Source: Alphaproteobacteria bacterium (GTDB lineage Bacteria; Pseudomonadota; Alphaproteobacteria; Reyranellales; Reyranellaceae). Taken from it: a stretch of DNA of 64,000 nucleotides. The notes below the pieces were generated by a model. That model searched no databases. It was not told the DNA's origin and worked only from the letters and a program-made list of their open reading frames with translations. Each line of letters starts with the position of its first letter. Position 1 is the first letter of the stretch. Made by a program: the position numbers and the translations under genes. Below are positions 4,284-21,374 of this stretch, one piece after another. The stretch lies in the NCBI GenBank assembly GCA_016869975.1, contig VGCZ01000007.1, positions 62,001 through 126,000 of the forward strand, in the 5' to 3' direction.

Positions 4284-5378
4284 TCAGCGCCGTTCCGCCA
4301 GCAACGCATCGACAGCGCGCCACACCGTCCAGGCGTTGCCCAGGGTCACGGAGCTGAAGCCGACGTGGCCGATCTGGTCGACCAGGAACAGCCGGGCGGC
4401 ACCCGGTCGGGCGGCGGCGGCGAGCGCCTCGCTCTCGCTGAAGGGAATGATGGGATCGTCTCGGCCATGGACGAGGATCAGCCGCGCCGCCAGTGGCTTC
4501 AGATCGTAGAGCGCCAGGTTCAGGGAATCGATGTCGCGCCTGATCGCTTCCGGTAAGGCCGCGATCAGGGTCGGAACCTGTGCCGGGTTAGTGGCCTCGA
4601 GAAGATCGAGGACCGCCAGTCCCTGCGGCGACAGCAGGTCGCGGACATCGGCGGAGGAGGCGTTGGCGTCGTCGAGTCGGCGATCGGCCAGTGTCCGCAG
4701 GAGATCACGGTCGCGCTCGTCGTCGAGGCGACCGGCGTTGGCGTGCAGGAAGACCCAGCGGCTGTAGGTGTTGGGCGGCAGGCGATGCAGCAGCGGGTCG
4801 TTGGCTCGGCGGAACGTGCCGGTGACCATGAACTGGATGGCGCTGTCGGTGTTGTGATAGCCGCCGATGCCGACGATGAAGTCGACCTTTCCCGCGAGAT
4901 CGGGCTCGAGCGCGGCGATGACCGCGGGGCCGACGCCGTAAGATACCGCCGCGATTCCGAGCGGCGACTGGGAACGATCGGCGCCACGCAGGACCTCGGC
5001 GAGGATCTCGGCGTCGGCGCGCGACAGGGAGAGCCGGCGCGGGCCGGGCAGCTCCGGCACGATCACCCGGAAGCCGGCGCGCGCCAGCGAGCGTGCGAGA
5101 TCGCGCAGGCGTGGCTCCTCGCGGCCGAGCACGGCAGCGCCGGGCACCAATACCAGGCTGGCGCGTGGTTCGTCGGCCGGCGTGTAGAGATCGACCTCGA
5201 TGCCGCGCAGCGTGCTCGTGGACTCGATCGGCGCGCGGATCAGCCGCTTGTAAGGCGTCGGCTCACGGGCGGCGGCTATGTCGGCCATCAGCAGCGCCGC
5301 CATGGTCCAGCGCACGGGTTGACCGAACACGAACAGGGCGCCGAGGGCGAAGCTGAGAAGGACGGCGGCGCGCTTCAT
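4284..5378 (-). CDS. Alpha/beta hydrolase, probably exported or membrane-anchored
   Basis: A 364-aa protein with a hydrophobic N-terminus (residues 3-32) that could be a signal anchor. The fold is an alpha/beta hydrolase: the nucleophile elbow is AAVS146YGVG, an atypical version of GxSxG with Ala in place of the first Gly; the acid is in HGRDDPIIPF and the histidine in DQIGHVGF near the C-terminus. It resembles dienelactone-hydrolase or peptidase-like enzymes, but I cannot assign a substrate. It lies 40 bp after the DMT transporter gene and 60 bp before the CoA-transferase. Confidence 0.75.
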   Translation of the reverse strand: MKRAAVLLSFALGALFVFGQPVRWTMAALLMADIAAAREPTPYKRLIRAPIESTSTLRGIEVDLYTPADEPRASLVLVPGAAVLGREEPRLRDLARSLARAGFRVIVPELPGPRRLSLSRADAEILAEVLRGADRSQSPLGIAAVSYGVGPAVIAALEPDLAGKVDFIVGIGGYHNTDSAIQFMVTGTFRRANDPLLHRLPPNTYSRWVFLHANAGRLDDERDRDLLRTLADRRLDDANASSADVRDLLSPQGLAVLDLLEATNPAQVPTLIAALPEAIRRDIDSLNLALYDLKPLAARLILVHGRDDPIIPFSESEALAAAARPGAARLFLVDQIGHVGFSSVTLGNAWTVWRAVDALLAERR

Positions 5379-5418
5379 GGGCCGCGAGGCTGCCGTGCGA
5401 GAGTGGCGAAAAGGCGGC

Positions 5419-6297
5419 TCAGGCCGGCGCCAGCCGCAGCCGCGCGGCGCGCGCCTCCCACAGCGTATTGAGCGCCAGCGCCCCCAGGATCACGCCGCCG
5501 CCGATGAAGCCGTAGAGGCCGGGCGATTCGCCGAAGGCCAGCCAAACCCAGAGCGGGCCCAACACGGTTTCGAGCAGGCCCACCAGGCTCGCAGTGGCCG
5601 CCGGCAGGTGGCGCAGGCCGAGCGTGAAGAGCACCAGGCCCAGCCCGAGTTGCACGACACCGAGGAAAGCCAGCCACGGGATCTCATGCGACGGCGCCGG
5701 GAACGGCCAGGCCAGCGGCAGGGTGATCAGGGCCGAGACAACGCCGCCCAGCACGACCGAGAACATCATGTTCACATCGGGTCGCGTGCGGATCACCACC
5801 ATGTTGGCAGCGAAGCTGACGGCGCAGAACAGCGCCAGAAGTGGCCCGATGATCCCGGTACTCGCCAGCGAATCAACGACGGTCAGCGCCACACCGCCGA
5901 TCGCCGCCAGCATGGCGAGCCAAGTCGCCGGTCGCACCGCCTCGCCGAGGAAGAGGCGCGCCAGCAGGGCGGCGATCAGCGGCGCCGAGGCGGTGACGAC
6001 CAGCGTGTTGGCGACGGTGGTGTGGTCGAGCGCGACGAAGAAGCCGACAAAAGCGCCGGACAGGCAGAAGGCGCTCAGCAGCATCGCGCGCCAGGCGCGG
6101 CGGATCGCATCGAGCGTCGCGGCGCGGTCGAACACCAGGAGATAGCCGCCGATGGTGAGCGCCATCACCACCGAGCGCCAGAAGACGATCTCCCAGGGAT
6201 TGGCCTGCAACGAGCGCGTGACGACGCCGGCAAAGCTCCAGCACAGCGCGCCGCCGGCGACCAACGCGACGCCGAGGGCGAAAGACTGACGGGTCAT
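5419..6297 (-). CDS. DMT-superfamily (EamA) transporter
   Basis: A 292-aa membrane protein with about ten hydrophobic segments arranged as two repeats of five, as in EamA-type drug/metabolite exporters. The first half has the recognisable GALCWSFAGVVTRSLQ and WEIVFWRSV, the second GPLLALFCAVSFAANMV and the final LLETVLGPLWVWLAFGE. Such proteins usually export amino acids or metabolites; no substrate can be deduced. It starts only 55 bp from the divergent hydrolase gene and leads the leftward run toward the penicillin acylase. Confidence 0.85.
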   Translation of the reverse strand: MTRQSFALGVALVAGGALCWSFAGVVTRSLQANPWEIVFWRSVVMALTIGGYLLVFDRAATLDAIRRAWRAMLLSAFCLSGAFVGFFVALDHTTVANTLVVTASAPLIAALLARLFLGEAVRPATWLAMLAAIGGVALTVVDSLASTGIIGPLLALFCAVSFAANMVVIRTRPDVNMMFSVVLGGVVSALITLPLAWPFPAPSHEIPWLAFLGVVQLGLGLVLFTLGLRHLPAATASLVGLLETVLGPLWVWLAFGESPGLYGFIGGGVILGALALNTLWEARAARLRLAPA

Positions 6298-14193: not shown

Positions 14194-15408
14194 GTGATTA
14201 ATCAGGCCGACAACAAGATTCTCGAGAAGTGGCTGGGCTGGCATCGCAAGTCGGGAACCGTTTTCACACCATCCTATGACGGCCGAGGCGCCGGTTTCGC
14301 GCCTGCGTTCGGCGCCTTCAACAACGCGACATTCGATGTCGGCCAGACGTGGAAAACCAGCCTCGGCACCAAGCGCGTCATCCTGGGAATTGTCGGCGAC
14401 ACCTTCCTGTTCGAGAGCGGCGGCAAGATATACGAGCAGGATCGCAGCGGGTTCCAGAACGACACCAGCAAGATCGACCAGATCGCGATCAACACCGCCG
14501 GGATCGGCTGGGCGATGGAAGTCATGGTGACGTCCGCGATCATCGTCATGATCTGCGCGCCGGCGGTCCTCGCGTCGCTGCCGGCGGCGTCGATCGCGCA
14601 AGGCACGTTGACGGTCACGACCAGCCACTCGTTCAGTTGGTGGGTTGTGACGGCCGTGCCGGCGATCCAGAAGTCGATCCCGATCATCCAGGCGGCCTTG
14701 CGTGCGCGGGCGCTGATGATCAAGACGACGCCCACGCTCTACGACGCGCTGATCAACCGCGCCATCTTCGACGGCATCAAGACGATTCCCGCCAGCGTCA
14801 AGACGGAGGTGACCAACGCCATCACGCACGCCGACAAGGGCTGGCTGGAGATCGCCGGCCTGCCCAAGATCCCCGAGATCAAGGACGGCATGACGTGGGA
14901 CGAATACATCTCGACGACGAAGGACTGCGTCGATACCGCCAAGGACTATTACGAGATCGCTTCGGCAATCTATAGCACCTGGACGTCGGGCGGCACGTTC
15001 AACCTGCTCAAGCTGGCGGGCAAGAAGTTCCTCGAAGGCCTGCTGGCGCCGCTCAAGGAATGGCAGGACACGCTGAAGGACTCCGGCAAGAGTGGCGCCC
15101 AGAACGCGATGAGCACCGCCGGTACCAACGCGCTGAAGCTGGGTGGTTCGTTTTCGCCGATGAGTCCTAGGGAGGTCGTTGACGCCTTCAAGGCGGCGGG
15201 CTTCGAGATCAGCGGCTTCACCGCGGAGAAAATCGCCGGCGAGCTGAAGGATCCCAAGGCGGCGGCGGCGGTGTGTGCCGCCCTGACGCTGCTCATGCAG
15301 GCGGCGGAGATCGACATGGGCGATATCTCGGTCAAGCCCAAACCCGGTGCCTGGGTGCGCGTTCGGTATGTCGAGCCTCCGAAGAAGCCGGCGCGGAAGG
15401 CGCGGTAG
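14194..15408 (+). CDS. Orphan 404-aa protein with hydrophobic segments
   Basis: I do not recognise this protein. It begins with a soluble part (INQADNKILEKWLGWHRKSG), has a hydrophobic stretch at about residues 107-135 and another at 148-168, a helical middle region rich in Lys and Ala, and a C-terminal part with a helix-type segment MSPREVVDAFKAAGFEISGF followed by a basic tail (PPKKPARKAR). No signal peptide is seen. The GTG start at 14194 has a good GGGGAGG site. It stands alone between the mmsB and GST genes, behind a perfect inverted repeat. A membrane-inserting or envelope-associated protein is possible; nothing stronger can be said. Confidence 0.7.
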   Translation: MINQADNKILEKWLGWHRKSGTVFTPSYDGRGAGFAPAFGAFNNATFDVGQTWKTSLGTKRVILGIVGDTFLFESGGKIYEQDRSGFQNDTSKIDQIAINTAGIGWAMEVMVTSAIIVMICAPAVLASLPAASIAQGTLTVTTSHSFSWWVVTAVPAIQKSIPIIQAALRARALMIKTTPTLYDALINRAIFDGIKTIPASVKTEVTNAITHADKGWLEIAGLPKIPEIKDGMTWDEYISTTKDCVDTAKDYYEIASAIYSTWTSGGTFNLLKLAGKKFLEGLLAPLKEWQDTLKDSGKSGAQNAMSTAGTNALKLGGSFSPMSPREVVDAFKAAGFEISGFTAEKIAGELKDPKAAAAVCAALTLLMQAAEIDMGDISVKPKPGAWVRVRYVEPPKKPARKAR

Positions 15409-16526: not shown

Positions 16527-17930
16527 TCAGAGCGCGCCGCGCAGGAAGTACCAGGCGATGCCAGCGGCGCTGCTCACCAGCAGCACCGCGATCATGCCGG
16601 CCTTGAAGCGAAACACGGCGATCGCAGCGGCGGCGGCGAGCACCAGCGACGGCCAATCCACCGATGATAGCACCGGTGCCTGCAGCGACATGCCGAGCCA
16701 GGCGAAGGGCGTGTGCTTGGTGAACAGCACCTGCAACGCGAACCAGATCGCCAGGTTCAGGATCACGCCCACCACCGCCGCGGTGATCGTGCCCAATGCC
16801 GCCGACAATGCCTTGTTGCCGCGCAGCGCCTCGACAAAGGGTGCACCGAAGAAGATCCACAGGAAGCAGGGCGCGAAGGTCACCCAGGTGGTCAGCAGGC
16901 CGCCCAGGGTCGCGGCGAGCAGGGGATTGAGGCCGCCGGGGGCGCGGTGCGCGGCGAGGAAGCCGACGAACTGCGTCACCATGATCAGCGGGCCGGGCGT
17001 GGTCTCGGCCATGCCCAGGCCGTCGAGCATCTCGCCCGCCGTCACCCAGTTGTAGTGCTCGACCGCCTGCTGCGCGACATAGGCCAGCACGGCATAGGCG
17101 CCGCCGAAGGTCACGACCGCCATCTTGCTGAAGAAGACGGCGATGTTGCTGAACACGTTGTCCGGTCCCAGCGTCGGCAGCAGCGCGGCCACCGGCGCCA
17201 GCCACAACAGCAGGAACACGGCGCTGATGGTCAGCGACCAGCGCAGGTTGGGCCGCGCATGCGCGGGCGTTTCCTCGCCCAGCAGCGAGTCGCGGTCGGC
17301 GACCTGCTTGTCGCCGACCTTGCCGTGCCCGCCGCCGGCGAGGAACGCCGGCATTCCCATGCGGCCGCCGACATAGCCGATCACGCCAGCGACGATGATG
17401 ATCAGCGGGAAGGGCACATCGTAGAAAAAGATCGCGATGAAGGCCGCCGCGGCGATGGCCACCATCACCTGGTTCTTCAGCGCGCGCTTGCCGACGCGCA
17501 CCACGGCCTCGATGACGATCGCCAGCACTGCCGCTTTCAGGCCGAAGAACAGACCTTGCACGACTCCAACCTTGCCGAAGATCACGTAGATCCAGCTCAG
17601 CGCCATGATCGCCAGCAGGCCGGGCAGCACGAAGAGCAGGCCAGCGGTCAGCCCGCCCTTGGTCTTGTGCATCAGCCAGCCGATGTAAGTCGCGAGCTGC
17701 TGCGCCTCGGGGCCGGGCAGCAAGGTGCAGTAGTTAAGCGCCTGCAAGAAGCGAGTCTCGCCGATCCACCGCTTTTCCTCGACGATGATGCGATGCATGA
17801 CGGCGATCTGGCCGGCCGGTCCGCCGAAGCTCAACGCCGCGACGCGCAGCCAGACCTTCACGGCCTCGCCGTACGGGACGCCGTGGCCCGCGGAGTCCAC
17901 CGGACGCGCCGGCAGTGTCTGGTCGGTCAT
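16527..17930 (-). CDS. chrA: Chromate transporter ChrA
   Basis: A 467-aa long-chain CHR-family membrane protein with two homologous halves of about six segments each. The first half has FGGPAGQIAVMHRIIVEEKR, LLPGPEAQQLATYIGW and the second FGGAYAVLAYVAQQAVEHY with TTPGPLIMVTQFVGFLA. These GGP/GG and PGP motifs define ChrA, which expels chromate using the proton gradient. Its ATG overlaps the chrB stop by four bases, giving a chrBA operon. A 20-bp gap separates it from the small convergent gene. Confidence 0.95.
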   Translation of the reverse strand: MTDQTLPARPVDSAGHGVPYGEAVKVWLRVAALSFGGPAGQIAVMHRIIVEEKRWIGETRFLQALNYCTLLPGPEAQQLATYIGWLMHKTKGGLTAGLLFVLPGLLAIMALSWIYVIFGKVGVVQGLFFGLKAAVLAIVIEAVVRVGKRALKNQVMVAIAAAAFIAIFFYDVPFPLIIIVAGVIGYVGGRMGMPAFLAGGGHGKVGDKQVADRDSLLGEETPAHARPNLRWSLTISAVFLLLWLAPVAALLPTLGPDNVFSNIAVFFSKMAVVTFGGAYAVLAYVAQQAVEHYNWVTAGEMLDGLGMAETTPGPLIMVTQFVGFLAAHRAPGGLNPLLAATLGGLLTTWVTFAPCFLWIFFGAPFVEALRGNKALSAALGTITAAVVGVILNLAIWFALQVLFTKHTPFAWLGMSLQAPVLSSVDWPSLVLAAAAAIAVFRFKAGMIAVLLVSSAAGIAWYFLRGAL

Positions 17931-18928
17931 TTGCCGCTCCGCTTTCCCCGGAAGGACTCATAGAGATCGTCGAGCACTGCGCCGCCACGCGCCAGGCGGC
18001 GCTCGTCGTCCTTCTGCGAGTCGGCGATGCCGGCGATCAGGGTGCGGATGCCGGCGGTTTCCTCTCGGCCGTACTTGCCGTCCTTCAGGTCGATGTCGTG
18101 GACGATCTGGGCGATCGCGGTCAGCGCTGGATCCTCCGCGCTGCTTAGCGCCTTCAGCTCGCCGACCAGCACCTCGAAGGTGCAGCGATCGCCGCGATGG
18201 GTGAACTCGCCTTCGAACATGTCGAAGCGCAGCTCGCCTGGCCGCGGCGTGTAGCCGGTGCCGGCCACGAACTTGAAGTGCGCGCCCTCGTCGATGAAGC
18301 GGCGGATCAGCCAGGCGGAGGCGATGCGATCGATCTGCACGCCCTTGCGCGTGACCCACACGCGTCCCTTCAGCTTGCCGGTCGTACCGGCATCCGACGG
18401 TGCGTCGCGCATGGCCGTGTCCTCCTGCTGCGGTTCGGATTCGAGGCCGGAAACCAGCCCCTTGGTCGGCTCGCGGCCATCGGCGCCGAAGAAGTCGATC
18501 GCCACCACCTCATCGAGCCGGCGGCGCAGGCGCGCGACCTGCGCGGCGAAGTCGGCATGGGCCTCGGCCGTATCGAGACTGGCGCGGCGAGCGGCCAGAT
18601 CGCGCGCGCTCGCCGAGATCTCGGCATAGTCCTCATCGCGCGCCGCGTCGAACAGCGCCTGTACCTCTCTATCATCGAGGCCGTCGATCAGGGTCGCTTC
18701 GCACGTGAAGGCCTCGCCGCCGAGCTCGACGATCTCGCGGACCAGCCAGGCGAAGTCCTCGCGGGTCTCGGCGTTGCAGGGCAGGGCGTAGACCGCGTTC
18801 TTCACTGTGACGGCGCCCAAGCCCTTGAGGCGGCGCCAGATCTTCACCCGGGCATAGGCCGGCTTGGCAGGCAACTGGTGGATCAGCAGCAGCCAGGGCG
18901 GGGAGTCTGCGGTCTGCGACGTGCTCAC
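17927..18928 (-). CDS. chrB: Chromate resistance protein ChrB
   Basis: A 333-aa protein with the two ChrB parts: an N-terminal winged-helix-like domain (WLLLIHQLPAKPAYARVKIW, AVTVKNAVYALPC) and a C-terminal domain (GRVWVTRKGVQIDRIASAWL, IRRFIDEGAHF, FDMFEGEFTHRGDRCTFE). In studied chr loci ChrB senses chromate and regulates the operon. The GTG at 18928 is the start used here. It is translated just ahead of chrA and divergent from the SOD-fusion gene, so it likely acts on the 115-bp intergenic region. Confidence 0.92.
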   Translation of the reverse strand: MSTSQTADSPPWLLLIHQLPAKPAYARVKIWRRLKGLGAVTVKNAVYALPCNAETREDFAWLVREIVELGGEAFTCEATLIDGLDDREVQALFDAARDEDYAEISASARDLAARRASLDTAEAHADFAAQVARLRRRLDEVVAIDFFGADGREPTKGLVSGLESEPQQEDTAMRDAPSDAGTTGKLKGRVWVTRKGVQIDRIASAWLIRRFIDEGAHFKFVAGTGYTPRPGELRFDMFEGEFTHRGDRCTFEVLVGELKALSSAEDPALTAIAQIVHDIDLKDGKYGREETAGIRTLIAGIADSQKDDERRLARGGAVLDDLYESFRGKRSGK

Positions 18929-19043
18929 GGTGCATCCGTATCATGTGGATAAGATTCTATGCAACACTTATATCTTTTTCCTTGCGCTCCTCGGTGGTGA
19001 GGGTATCGTGGTGATGAAACGAGTGTATCAGGAGCACCGATCC
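18929..19043. promoter_or_regulatory. Divergent promoter region of the chromate locus
   Basis: The 115 bases between chrB and the SOD-fusion gene are clearly more AT-rich than their surroundings (ATGCAACACTTATATC). Rightward, TTGCGC at 18982 and TATCGT at 19004 are 16 bases apart and could be weak -35/-10 boxes. Leftward, TTGCAT lies in the same stretch. I infer that ChrB acts here; I see no clean operator palindrome. Confidence 0.4.
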
Positions 19044-19982
19044 ATGCCGTTCCACACCCGGCCGATCTCCTTCAAGCCCTCCCGCCTCAACGGGCTGAGC
19101 GGGCGGCTGATCGCCAGCCACTACGAGAACAACTACGGCGGAGCGGTGCGGCGCCTGAACGCGATCCGCGGCGAGCTGGCCGCGCTCGACCCGGCGACCG
19201 CGCCCGGCTTTCGGCTCAACGGGCTGAAGCGCGAGGAGCTGATCGCCACCAACTCGATGCTCCTGCATGAGCTCTACTTCGAGGCGCTGGGCGGACCGGG
19301 CGGCGATCCCGCGGGTGAACTTGCGCAGGCGATCGAACGTGACTTCGGGTCGTTGGCGCGGTGGCGCGCGGAGTTCGTCGCCATGGGCAAGGCGCTGGGT
19401 GGTGGCTCGGGCTGGGTGGTGCTGACGCGCTCGGCGCGCGACGGCGGCCTGGCCAATGTCTGGGCGGCGGACCATACGCACAGCCTCGCTGGCGGCACGC
19501 CGATCCTGGCGCTCGACATGTACGAGCATTCCTACCACATCGACTTCGGCGCCAACGTCGCGGCTTATGTCGACGCGTTCATGGCGAACATCTCCTGGGC
19601 GCGCGTCGCGGCGCGCTTCGCCGGCACGCCGGCCGAAAGAAACCCCTACGCCATCAACACGACGGCGGCACGCACGCTGGTCGAGTCTAATCCCGACCTG
19701 CTGGTGATCGACGCGCGTCAGCCCGACGACGCGATCAGCGTACCGGTGCGCCTGCGCGGCGCGCGTCGTGCGCCGCCGGGCCGCGTTGAGGAGGTCGCGG
19801 CCACCTTGCCCAAGGGCGCCAAGGCGCTGGTCTATTGCGCCTGGGGCTTCGACATCGGCGGCGACTGCGCGGCCAAGCTGCGCGAGCGCGGCCTCGACGC
19901 CGTCACCATCGCCGGCGGCATCGGCGCCTGGCGCGCCGACGGCATGCCCACCGAACCGCACAAGGAAGGAGACACGCCATGA
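19044..19982 (+). CDS. Fe/Mn superoxide dismutase fused to a rhodanese domain (ChrC-like)
   Basis: A 312-aa fusion. Residues 1-195 are an iron/manganese superoxide dismutase with all four metal ligands: H26 (ASH26YENNYGG), H75 (LLH75ELYFEALGG), D158 and H162 (LD158MYEH162SYHIDFG). Residues 205-305 are a rhodanese-like domain with the active-site loop VYC265AWGFDIGGDC and DAVTIAGGIGAWRADGMP. SOD-type ChrC occurs in known chr operons and protects against superoxide made during chromate reduction; the sulfurtransferase half is unusual. The ATG at 19044 follows an AGGAG site. Its stop overlaps the next gene by four bases. Confidence 0.88.
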   Translation: MPFHTRPISFKPSRLNGLSGRLIASHYENNYGGAVRRLNAIRGELAALDPATAPGFRLNGLKREELIATNSMLLHELYFEALGGPGGDPAGELAQAIERDFGSLARWRAEFVAMGKALGGGSGWVVLTRSARDGGLANVWAADHTHSLAGGTPILALDMYEHSYHIDFGANVAAYVDAFMANISWARVAARFAGTPAERNPYAINTTAARTLVESNPDLLVIDARQPDDAISVPVRLRGARRAPPGRVEEVAATLPKGAKALVYCAWGFDIGGDCAAKLRERGLDAVTIAGGIGAWRADGMPTEPHKEGDTP

Positions 19983-20431
19983 AGTGGGTCACCCGCGAAC
20001 GGCCCAAGATCGACCGCATCGCCTGCCCGTGGCTGATCACGCGCTTCATCGACAAGCAGCCGGAGTTTCTCTACGTGCCGCCGGAGCGCGTGCTCGCCGT
20101 GGCCAAGGAGACCGGCGCCGAGCCCTACGACATCCCCGGCGTGAAGTTCAGCCATGTCGGCGAGAAGTGCAGCTTCGACGCCTTCATTGCCGAATATAAA
20201 CTCGACGCGCCGGGCCTCGATCGTCTCGCCGACATCGTGCGCGGCGCCGACACCTCGCGCCTCGACCTGACGCCGCAATCGGCCGGGCTGTTCGCGATCT
20301 CGTTGGGACTGAGCCACGTCTATCAGGACGACCACGAGATGCTGAAGCACGGCATGGTGATGTACGACGCGCTCTACGCGTGGTGCCGCAGCCTGACCGG
20401 CGAAACGCACAACTGGCCACCGAAGATGTGA
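19979..20431 (+). CDS. Stand-alone ChrB C-terminal domain protein
   Basis: A 150-aa protein that matches only the C-terminal half of ChrB: VTRERPKIDRIACPWLITRF, IDKQPEFLYVPPE, VKFSHVGEKCSFDAFI and a helical C-terminus. Compared with ChrB, the IDRIAxxWLIxRFID and FxHxGxxCxFxxx segments are kept and the N-terminal DNA-binding-like part is missing. That makes it a likely sensor or enzyme domain acting without DNA binding. It overlaps the SOD-fusion gene by four bases (ATGA) and precedes the propeller gene by 7 bp, so the three are one operon. Confidence 0.88.
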   Translation: MKWVTRERPKIDRIACPWLITRFIDKQPEFLYVPPERVLAVAKETGAEPYDIPGVKFSHVGEKCSFDAFIAEYKLDAPGLDRLADIVRGADTSRLDLTPQSAGLFAISLGLSHVYQDDHEMLKHGMVMYDALYAWCRSLTGETHNWPPKM

Positions 20432-20438
20432 GGCGGCC

Positions 20439-21374
20439 ATGAGCGAGGCACCGCTGCGCCTGGAAGGCTACGTCGATCTGCCGCCGCACAAGGGCAAGGG
20501 CGGTTTCGACCACGCCGCTGTGCACGCCGCGACAGGCCATGTCTACGTCGCGCATACGGCGAACGACTCGGTGGATGTGTTCGATCCGCTGCGGCGCGAA
20601 TGCCTGTACTCGATTCCGGACCTTCCCGGCGTCGCCGGCGCGTTGGTGAGCGACGAGGGACAACTTATCCTCTCGTCCAATCGCGGCGCCGATACAATCG
20701 GCGTGTTCGCGCCCGGCCGGGATCCAGTCGTGCGGCGGCTGGGCGTGGGTGTGCGGCCCAACGGTCTGGCCTATGACCATCGCCGCCAGCTTGTGCTCGC
20801 CGCCAATGTCGGCGACGAGGCGACTCCCGGCACGCATACGGTCTCGCTGGTGTGGCTCGGCGGCGACTCGGTGCGGCGCGAGATCGCCGTGCCGGGCCGC
20901 ACGCGGTGGACGGTGTTCGATCCGACCACTGAACTGTTTTACGTCAACATCGCCAAGCCCTCGCTGATCATCGTCATCGATCCGCGTCAACCCGATCGCA
21001 TCGCGCGCAGCTACGCGATCGCCCATGCCGGTGCCCATGGCCTCGACATCGATATCGAAACGCAGCGGCTGTTCTGCGCCTGCGACGCCGGCGTGCTGGT
21101 GACGCTCGACGCCCGCTCGGGCGGTGTGCTCGACGAGAAGCCGCTGAGCGGCGTACCCGATGTCGTCTGGTTCAACCGCCAGCGCCGGCAGCTCTACGTC
21201 GCGGTGGGCGATCCCGGTGTCATCGATGTCTTTGCGACCTCACCGGTGACGAAGCTGGTCACGGTCGAGACGGAGGGCGGCGCGCATACGACGGCACTAT
21301 CGCCGTCCGGCGACTGGCTCTGCGCCTTCCTGCCGCGCACGCATCGCGCGGCGGTCTACCGCATCGGCGGCTAA
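20439..21374 (+). CDS. YncE-like beta-propeller protein in the chromate operon
   Basis: A 311-aa protein with repeated blade motifs (HVYVAHTANDSVDVFDP, LILSSNRGADTIGVF, LFYVNIAKPSLIIVIDP, LYVAVGDPGVIDVFAT) typical of seven-bladed YVTN/YncE propellers. No signal peptide is apparent, so it is probably cytoplasmic. Propellers of this kind often serve as binding scaffolds; a link to chromate or redox stress is inferred only from its place as the third gene of the operon. Its stop overlaps that of the convergent alcohol dehydrogenase gene. Confidence 0.8.
   Translation: MSEAPLRLEGYVDLPPHKGKGGFDHAAVHAATGHVYVAHTANDSVDVFDPLRRECLYSIPDLPGVAGALVSDEGQLILSSNRGADTIGVFAPGRDPVVRRLGVGVRPNGLAYDHRRQLVLAANVGDEATPGTHTVSLVWLGGDSVRREIAVPGRTRWTVFDPTTELFYVNIAKPSLIIVIDPRQPDRIARSYAIAHAGAHGLDIDIETQRLFCACDAGVLVTLDARSGGVLDEKPLSGVPDVVWFNRQRRQLYVAVGDPGVIDVFATSPVTKLVTVETEGGAHTTALSPSGDWLCAFLPRTHRAAVYRIGG

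Follow-up and report, generated by a model that had tools for sequence, protein, structure and literature searches.

A superoxide dismutase–rhodanese fusion of ChrC–ChrE type in a chromate locus of a Reyranellaceae bacterium

The chromate locus and its fusion gene

The window, that is, the whole 64,000-nucleotide stretch of DNA that was analysed, contains a chromate locus whose features are collected in Table 1. One of its open reading frames is translated into a single chain of 312 amino acids, which consists of a superoxide dismutase (SOD) half and a rhodanese half. The start methionine of this chain is common to the orthologues. Stand-alone ChrC proteins have a length of about 195-200 amino acids, whereas the fusion carries a rhodanese at its C-terminus. 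An AlphaFold2 model of the full fusion, built from a 45-sequence alignment, reached a pLDDT of 91.5 and a pTM of 0.88. The first-pass annotation had described a ChrC-type SOD joined to a rhodanese within a chr locus, with four SOD ligands and a loop cysteine in one chain. The domain matches, the fold and the chrA, chrB and chrF-like neighbours agree with this description, and H26, H75, D158 and H162 were found together with C265, whose residue number was given exactly. A chance join, a frameshift or an assembly artefact was ruled out by full-length orthologues in dozens of independent genomes.

Table 1. Features of the chromate locus, in window coordinates.
Feature	Position	Strand	Basis
404-aa protein beside the chromate cluster	14194-15408	+	no Pfam or NCBIfam match
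chrA, transporter for chromate efflux; overlaps chrB by ATGA	16527-17930	-	ChrA, 239 bits
chrB, putative chromate-responsive regulator; divergent from the fusion gene	17927-18928	-	ChrB_N, 52.6 bits; ChrB_C, 144.9 bits
First operator-like repeat, AACACTTATATCT, within the divergent promoter between chrB and the fusion gene; also conserved among relatives	18963-18975	+	
Second operator-like repeat AACGAGTGTATCA, just 5′ of the fusion ribosome-binding site	19018-19030	+	
Ribosome-binding site AGGAG, 9 nt 5′ of the fusion-gene ATG	19030-19034	+	
Fusion gene, ChrC-ChrE-like, Fe/Mn SOD and rhodanese domain, 312 aa	19044-19982	+	Pfam, NCBIfam, AlphaFold model
SOD half, residues 1-195, SodFM4-like, ChrC clade	19044-19628	+	Pfam, 1coj alignment, structure match
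SOD metal-ligand codons H26, H75, D158, H162	19119, 19266, 19515, 19527	+	1coj alignment
Codons 30-34, NYGGA; gateway His30 to Asn and Tyr34 to Ala relative to typical SODs	19131-19145	+	
Rhodanese half, about residues 204-306, ChrE-like	19653-19961	+	NCBIfam, model, structure match
Cys265 codon, catalytic position, in loop CAWGFD	19836-19838	+	
Stand-alone ChrB_C protein, chrF homologue (pMOL28, Ochrobactrum tritici); overlaps the fusion gene by ATGA	19979-20431	+	170 bits
YncE-like beta-propeller protein	20439-21374	+	Pfam/NCBIfam

The closest classical counterpart is found on plasmid pMOL28 of Cupriavidus metallidurans, where the annotated order is chrI, chrB, chrA, SOD (chrC), chrE, ChrB_C (chrF), more genes and, as the last one, a YncE-family gene. 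The order SOD-rhodanese-ChrB_C in the window is the same as the C-E-F order of pMOL28. The plasmid-borne ChrC (WP_011239974.1) is about 70% identical to the SOD half of the window protein, and ChrE (WP_011239975.1) has a cysteine in the same loop as the rhodanese half. A YncE-family gene lies downstream in both, and such a gene likewise closes the chr cluster of B. pyrrocinia. In contrast to the window, chrC and chrE of pMOL28 are separate genes, the similarity of ChrE to the rhodanese half is only distant (~30 bits), and chrB-A is co-oriented with chrC, whereas chrB and chrA of the window are divergent from the fusion. The window gene is chrC plus chrE of the classical chrB-A-C-E-F set as one chain. 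The earlier view of the rhodanese as an addition to a chr SOD holds insofar as the two are fused, but the domain is not foreign, as chrE of pMOL28 already adjoins chrC. Since a SOD-adjacent rhodanese was already known, the fusion adds tethering and not a new function.

The divergent promoter between chrB and the fusion gene contains two direct-repeat copies of AACRNNNRTATCW. They are the only copies in the 64 kb, against 0.14 expected for this pattern, which was picked after inspection of the alignment. The first repeat is conserved as far as the Rhizobium and Mesorhizobium loci. Judged from the sequence, the repeats are a candidate ChrB operator. They are unlike the operator of TnOtChr, which is a 12-9-12 inverted repeat (PMC3817168). 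A scan for a sigma-70 promoter or a terminator near 18800-19150 found none.

Structure and conservation of the two halves

The Pfam Sod_Fe_C model matched residues 89-191 of the fusion with 82.5 bits (cut-off 20.9). Superposition of the model of residues 1-195 on the solved Fe/Mn SODs 8bhx and 1ids gave a Z-score of 26.2 and 1.7 Å over 193 residues, and in the alignment the four ligands are in register with those of 1coj. These ligands are kept in all intact homologues (81 fused and 17 free), the exception being the frame-broken plasmid copy L116. This copy (4977-5921) is degenerate, and chrA of the same cluster also looks interrupted.

The residues at the gateway of the active site are another matter, and their loss was overlooked in the first-pass annotation. 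Asn30 and Ala34 replace the gateway His30 and Tyr34 in 97 of the 98 fused and free ChrC-type domains, whereas the ordinary SODs of related genomes carry His and Tyr at these positions of the alignment. His30 and Tyr34 are kept by almost all SODs; they are conserved, not strictly defining. The SOD half also has the motif HXXXNY, which by sequence would fit the missing last His of HXXXHH in SodFM4 enzymes. In the ChrC clade, H144 is invariant and is a putative water-coordinating His; it would fit the C-terminal water-coordinating His of the SodFM3 and SodFM4 types (PMC10172142). The clade shares its ligands with SodFM4 enzymes, exemplified by the Aquifex SOD 1coj (PMC10172142), and judged from the sequence it would also resemble them in the putative C-terminal water-coordinating His and in lacking the final His of HXXXHH; a tetramer, the further mark of this subfamily, is known from O. 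tritici ChrC. The clade differs from 1coj, which retains His30 and Tyr34, in having Asn and Ala. In human MnSOD, k1 falls from 1.5 to 0.25 in the Y34A mutant and to 0.21 in the H30N mutant, which is ~6-7 fold lower, and product release is raised (PMC9208312). The gateway losses would therefore be expected to slow the turnover of the SOD half.

The activity of a ChrC without a rhodanese has been determined in O. tritici. The purified enzyme is an active tetrameric Fe-SOD in both gel and solution assays, and deletion of chrC leads to more ROS under chromate (PMC4779226). The published primers used to clone this gene fit both ends of chrC in locus L118 without a mismatch, from which we infer that L118 is the O. 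tritici gene between the primer sites. The L118 chrC has the N30/A34/S71 signature of the window's ChrC clade. By way of L118, ChrC of TnOtChr can be placed in the same SOD clade, with N30, A34, S71 and H144; it differs in that it has no fused rhodanese and its cluster has no chrE. Because purified O. tritici ChrC is active and the primer-matched L118 shares N30/A34/S71, a loss of SOD activity in the ChrC clade seems unlikely, and the fusion is likely to function as a SOD. The superoxide removal proposed in the first-pass annotation draws its support from this homologue, an active Fe-SOD whose deletion raises ROS, and for the fusion itself it may be assumed by analogy.

The rhodanese half was recognised less readily by the family models. 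Pfam Rhodanese (PF00581) gave 16 bits on the window protein, which is under the cut-off of 22.2. The NCBIfam model of ChrE (NF033833) was the top named rhodanese with 44.5 bits (E 1.2e-11); as its curated cut-off of 120 was missed, we use the label "ChrE-like". At E ≤ 0.001, the Pfam model matched 29 and NF033833 all 45 of the 45 orthologues. Modelled alone, the half reached a pLDDT of 90.8, with a Z-score of 15.8 against 3tp9 and of 14.3 against E. coli GlpE. On account of this structural match, we assigned the half to the rhodaneses despite the weak family scores. In the model, C265 immediately follows the strand 260-264, which is the usual place of the catalytic cysteine.

The first-pass annotation had made its reading depend on the presence of the rhodanese half in orthologues. 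The fusion is indeed conserved, and 79 of its 81 examples retain C265, the exceptions being L030, which is frame-broken, and the degenerate plasmid copy L116. Kept alongside C265 are Y264, G268, G291-G292 and W296. The orthologue alignment showed lower conservation in the rhodanese half than in the SOD half. In close pairs, dN/dS was ~0.05-0.28 in the SOD half and ~0.10-0.28 in the rhodanese half. These values indicate that selection maintains the two halves, with the tighter constraint on the SOD half, and that the rhodanese half is under purifying selection.

The loop CAWGFD is without the Arg of typical CRxGxR loops. In the alignment, C265 and G283 lie one residue further apart than the equivalent positions of ordinary rhodaneses, namely of most of the CxxGxR-type ones of the same genome. 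A Cdc25/Acr2-like seven-residue oxyanion loop was considered and rejected. The model helix begins at 271, after six loop residues, the arginine of Cys-X5-Arg is absent, and the longer spacing also occurs in one ordinary tandem rhodanese. Other redox enzymes with a C-terminal rhodanese are exemplified by the persulfide dioxygenase-rhodanese 5ve3 and by CoADR-RHD 3ict. Their rhodanese folds match that of the window protein, but their redox partners are unrelated to SOD and they do not come from chromate operons.

Distribution of the fusion and of ChrE-type domains

A full-length fusion is present in 31 of 61 Reyranellaceae genomes (that of the window and 60 others), and a few more genomes contain pieces of it at contig ends. 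A ChrC-type SOD was found in 18 of 289 evenly sampled alphaproteobacterial genomes; in 12 of them it belongs to a full-length fusion, and these 12 represent about ten families. The fusion also occurs in many other Alpha- and Betaproteobacteria and on plasmids of Rhizobium, Variovorax, Acidovorax and Pseudomonas, beta- and gammaproteobacterial ones included. The plasmid-borne fusions bear the annotation "Fe-Mn family superoxide dismutase" or none. Where the flanks are long enough, homologues of chrA, chrB and chrF nearly always lie beside the fusion. The survey of other chr loci that the first-pass annotation had proposed thus shows the fusion to be widespread in this setting. We found no description of a SOD-rhodanese fusion in chr operons in the openly licensed literature; it is apparently undescribed, although it is built from known chr-operon parts and does not represent a new type of system.

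Several further arrangements were observed. Seven Reyranellaceae loci (L058, L067, L068, L074, L030, L039 and L007) have a tandem second SOD-rhodanese paralogue with ~45% identity, and in L030 and L068 the fusion is split over two frames. A free ChrC that adjoins chrA was also found in L049, L052, L055, L059, L063 and L065. In a quick SOD tree, two changes of state separate the fused from the free forms. Because the outgroup branch is very long, the tree is compatible with either gain or loss of the fusion.

ChrE-type domains were detected in 45 of 299 sampled Pseudomonadota genomes, all below the NF033833 cut-off of 120. Among the best 30 loci (L155-L184), 27 have the domain fused to ChrB_C (chrF) and two to SOD, one of which is the window, and one is free. 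Being fused to chrF or to SOD in all but one of these 30 loci, ChrE is a module that joins either neighbour. A protein of the ChrE-ChrF type, SMc00911 of S. meliloti, has been studied (PMC3462710). In such proteins, the same rhodanese family is joined to a neighbour from the chr operon, but this partner is chrF, on the other side, the rhodanese is N-terminal, and there is no SOD.

Proposed role in chromate resistance

The fold of both halves, the metal ligands, the cysteine, the orthology, the conservation and the operon are established here. With these in hand, we consider it probable that the fusion is a one-chain chrC (SodFM4-like Fe-SOD) and chrE (single-domain rhodanese) that works according to the following scheme. 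On entry of chromate, ChrB would release the divergent promoter, and ChrA would export chromate. The SOD half, presumably an iron tetramer, would remove the superoxide that arises from one-electron reduction of chromate inside the cell. Four rhodanese copies on short linkers would sit on the outside of the SOD tetramer. There, the thiol or persulfide of C265 could act on sulfur species formed concurrently, of which Cr-thiol (glutathione) complexes or sulfane sulfur are the most plausible. The fusion would provide a fixed 1:1 dosage and hold both activities together. In this scheme, the induction of the fusion, the chemistry of its rhodanese and the benefit of tethering are conjectural, and the rhodanese half may have a sulfurtransferase role, a Cr-glutathione role or, as the first-pass annotation had proposed, a role in the repair of thiols or Fe-S clusters. 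That ChrE acts on Cr-glutathione complexes has been put forward in the literature as a suggestion only (PMC10581121), and TnOtChr functions without any chrE (PMC4779226). There is thus at least one system in which resistance does not require the rhodanese. In O. tritici, chrC and chrF are also reportedly not crucial for resistance.

If the rhodanese half were a non-catalytic appendage for binding, dimerisation or docking of ChrF, the SOD half alone would do the work. The weak scores of the rhodanese models on the window protein, the lower conservation of this half, the atypical loop without Arg and the absence of chrE from related chr systems (PMC4779226) are consistent with such a role. However, an appendage need not keep an active-site cysteine, and C265 is retained in nearly all fusions together with its neighbouring residues. 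The purifying selection on this half and its complete rhodanese fold, with GlpE among the matches, also argue against an appendage, which we regard as improbable. We think it even less probable that the protein is a housekeeping SOD or a general oxidative-stress protein, with chromate as one inducer among several. The Sod_Fe_C, Sod_Cu and desulfoferrodoxin models detected no other Fe/Mn or Cu/Zn SOD or superoxide reductase in the genome of the window (G000; 4.84 Mb), whose assembly in 96 contigs could miss a SOD. A search for Ni-SOD gave no match anywhere, control genomes included, and is uninformative. A single SOD is unusual for an aerobic bacterium, unless there is a gap in the assembly. 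Should the assembly be complete in this respect, the role of general SOD must fall to the fusion, and this again favours its activity. Against a housekeeping function, chr genes adjoin the fusion in nearly all informative loci, and two genomes of the same genus, G001 and G003, have typical SODs in addition.

Two further explanations start from the chemistry of the active sites. The open gateway (N30, A34) could mean that the metal site has shifted from superoxide dismutation to another small oxidant or to a chromium species; the rhodanese would then be the source of thiol electrons. This would account for the almost invariable N30/A34 of ChrC-type domains, in contrast to the His/Tyr of the ordinary SODs. 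But the signature-bearing ChrC matches the O. tritici enzyme that has SOD activity and whose deletion raises ROS, and a shift of this kind is very improbable. The protein might also be a dedicated chromium-thiol detoxifier. Its rhodanese Cys would then split or reduce adducts of Cr with glutathione, and the metal site with its open gateway would clear away the superoxide or Cr(V) radicals that form in the same step. Such a function is rather unlikely; if it were true, the halves would form a channelled two-step enzyme and not two tethered ones. A one-chain ChrC and ChrE-like rhodanese that works in the proposed scheme is the reading we prefer.

The natural N30/A34 pair of the ChrC clade offers a wild-type enzyme for asking why SODs keep His30 and Tyr34; its counterparts are known singly as slow, less product-inhibited mutants of human MnSOD. 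As the database entries name only the SOD, the rhodanese half has been overlooked. That ChrC is naturally joined to a ChrE-like domain argues strongly, if circumstantially, for a partnership between the chromate SOD and the product of chrE, which has long been neglected, and the fusion provides a single protein in which the function of ChrE may be probed.
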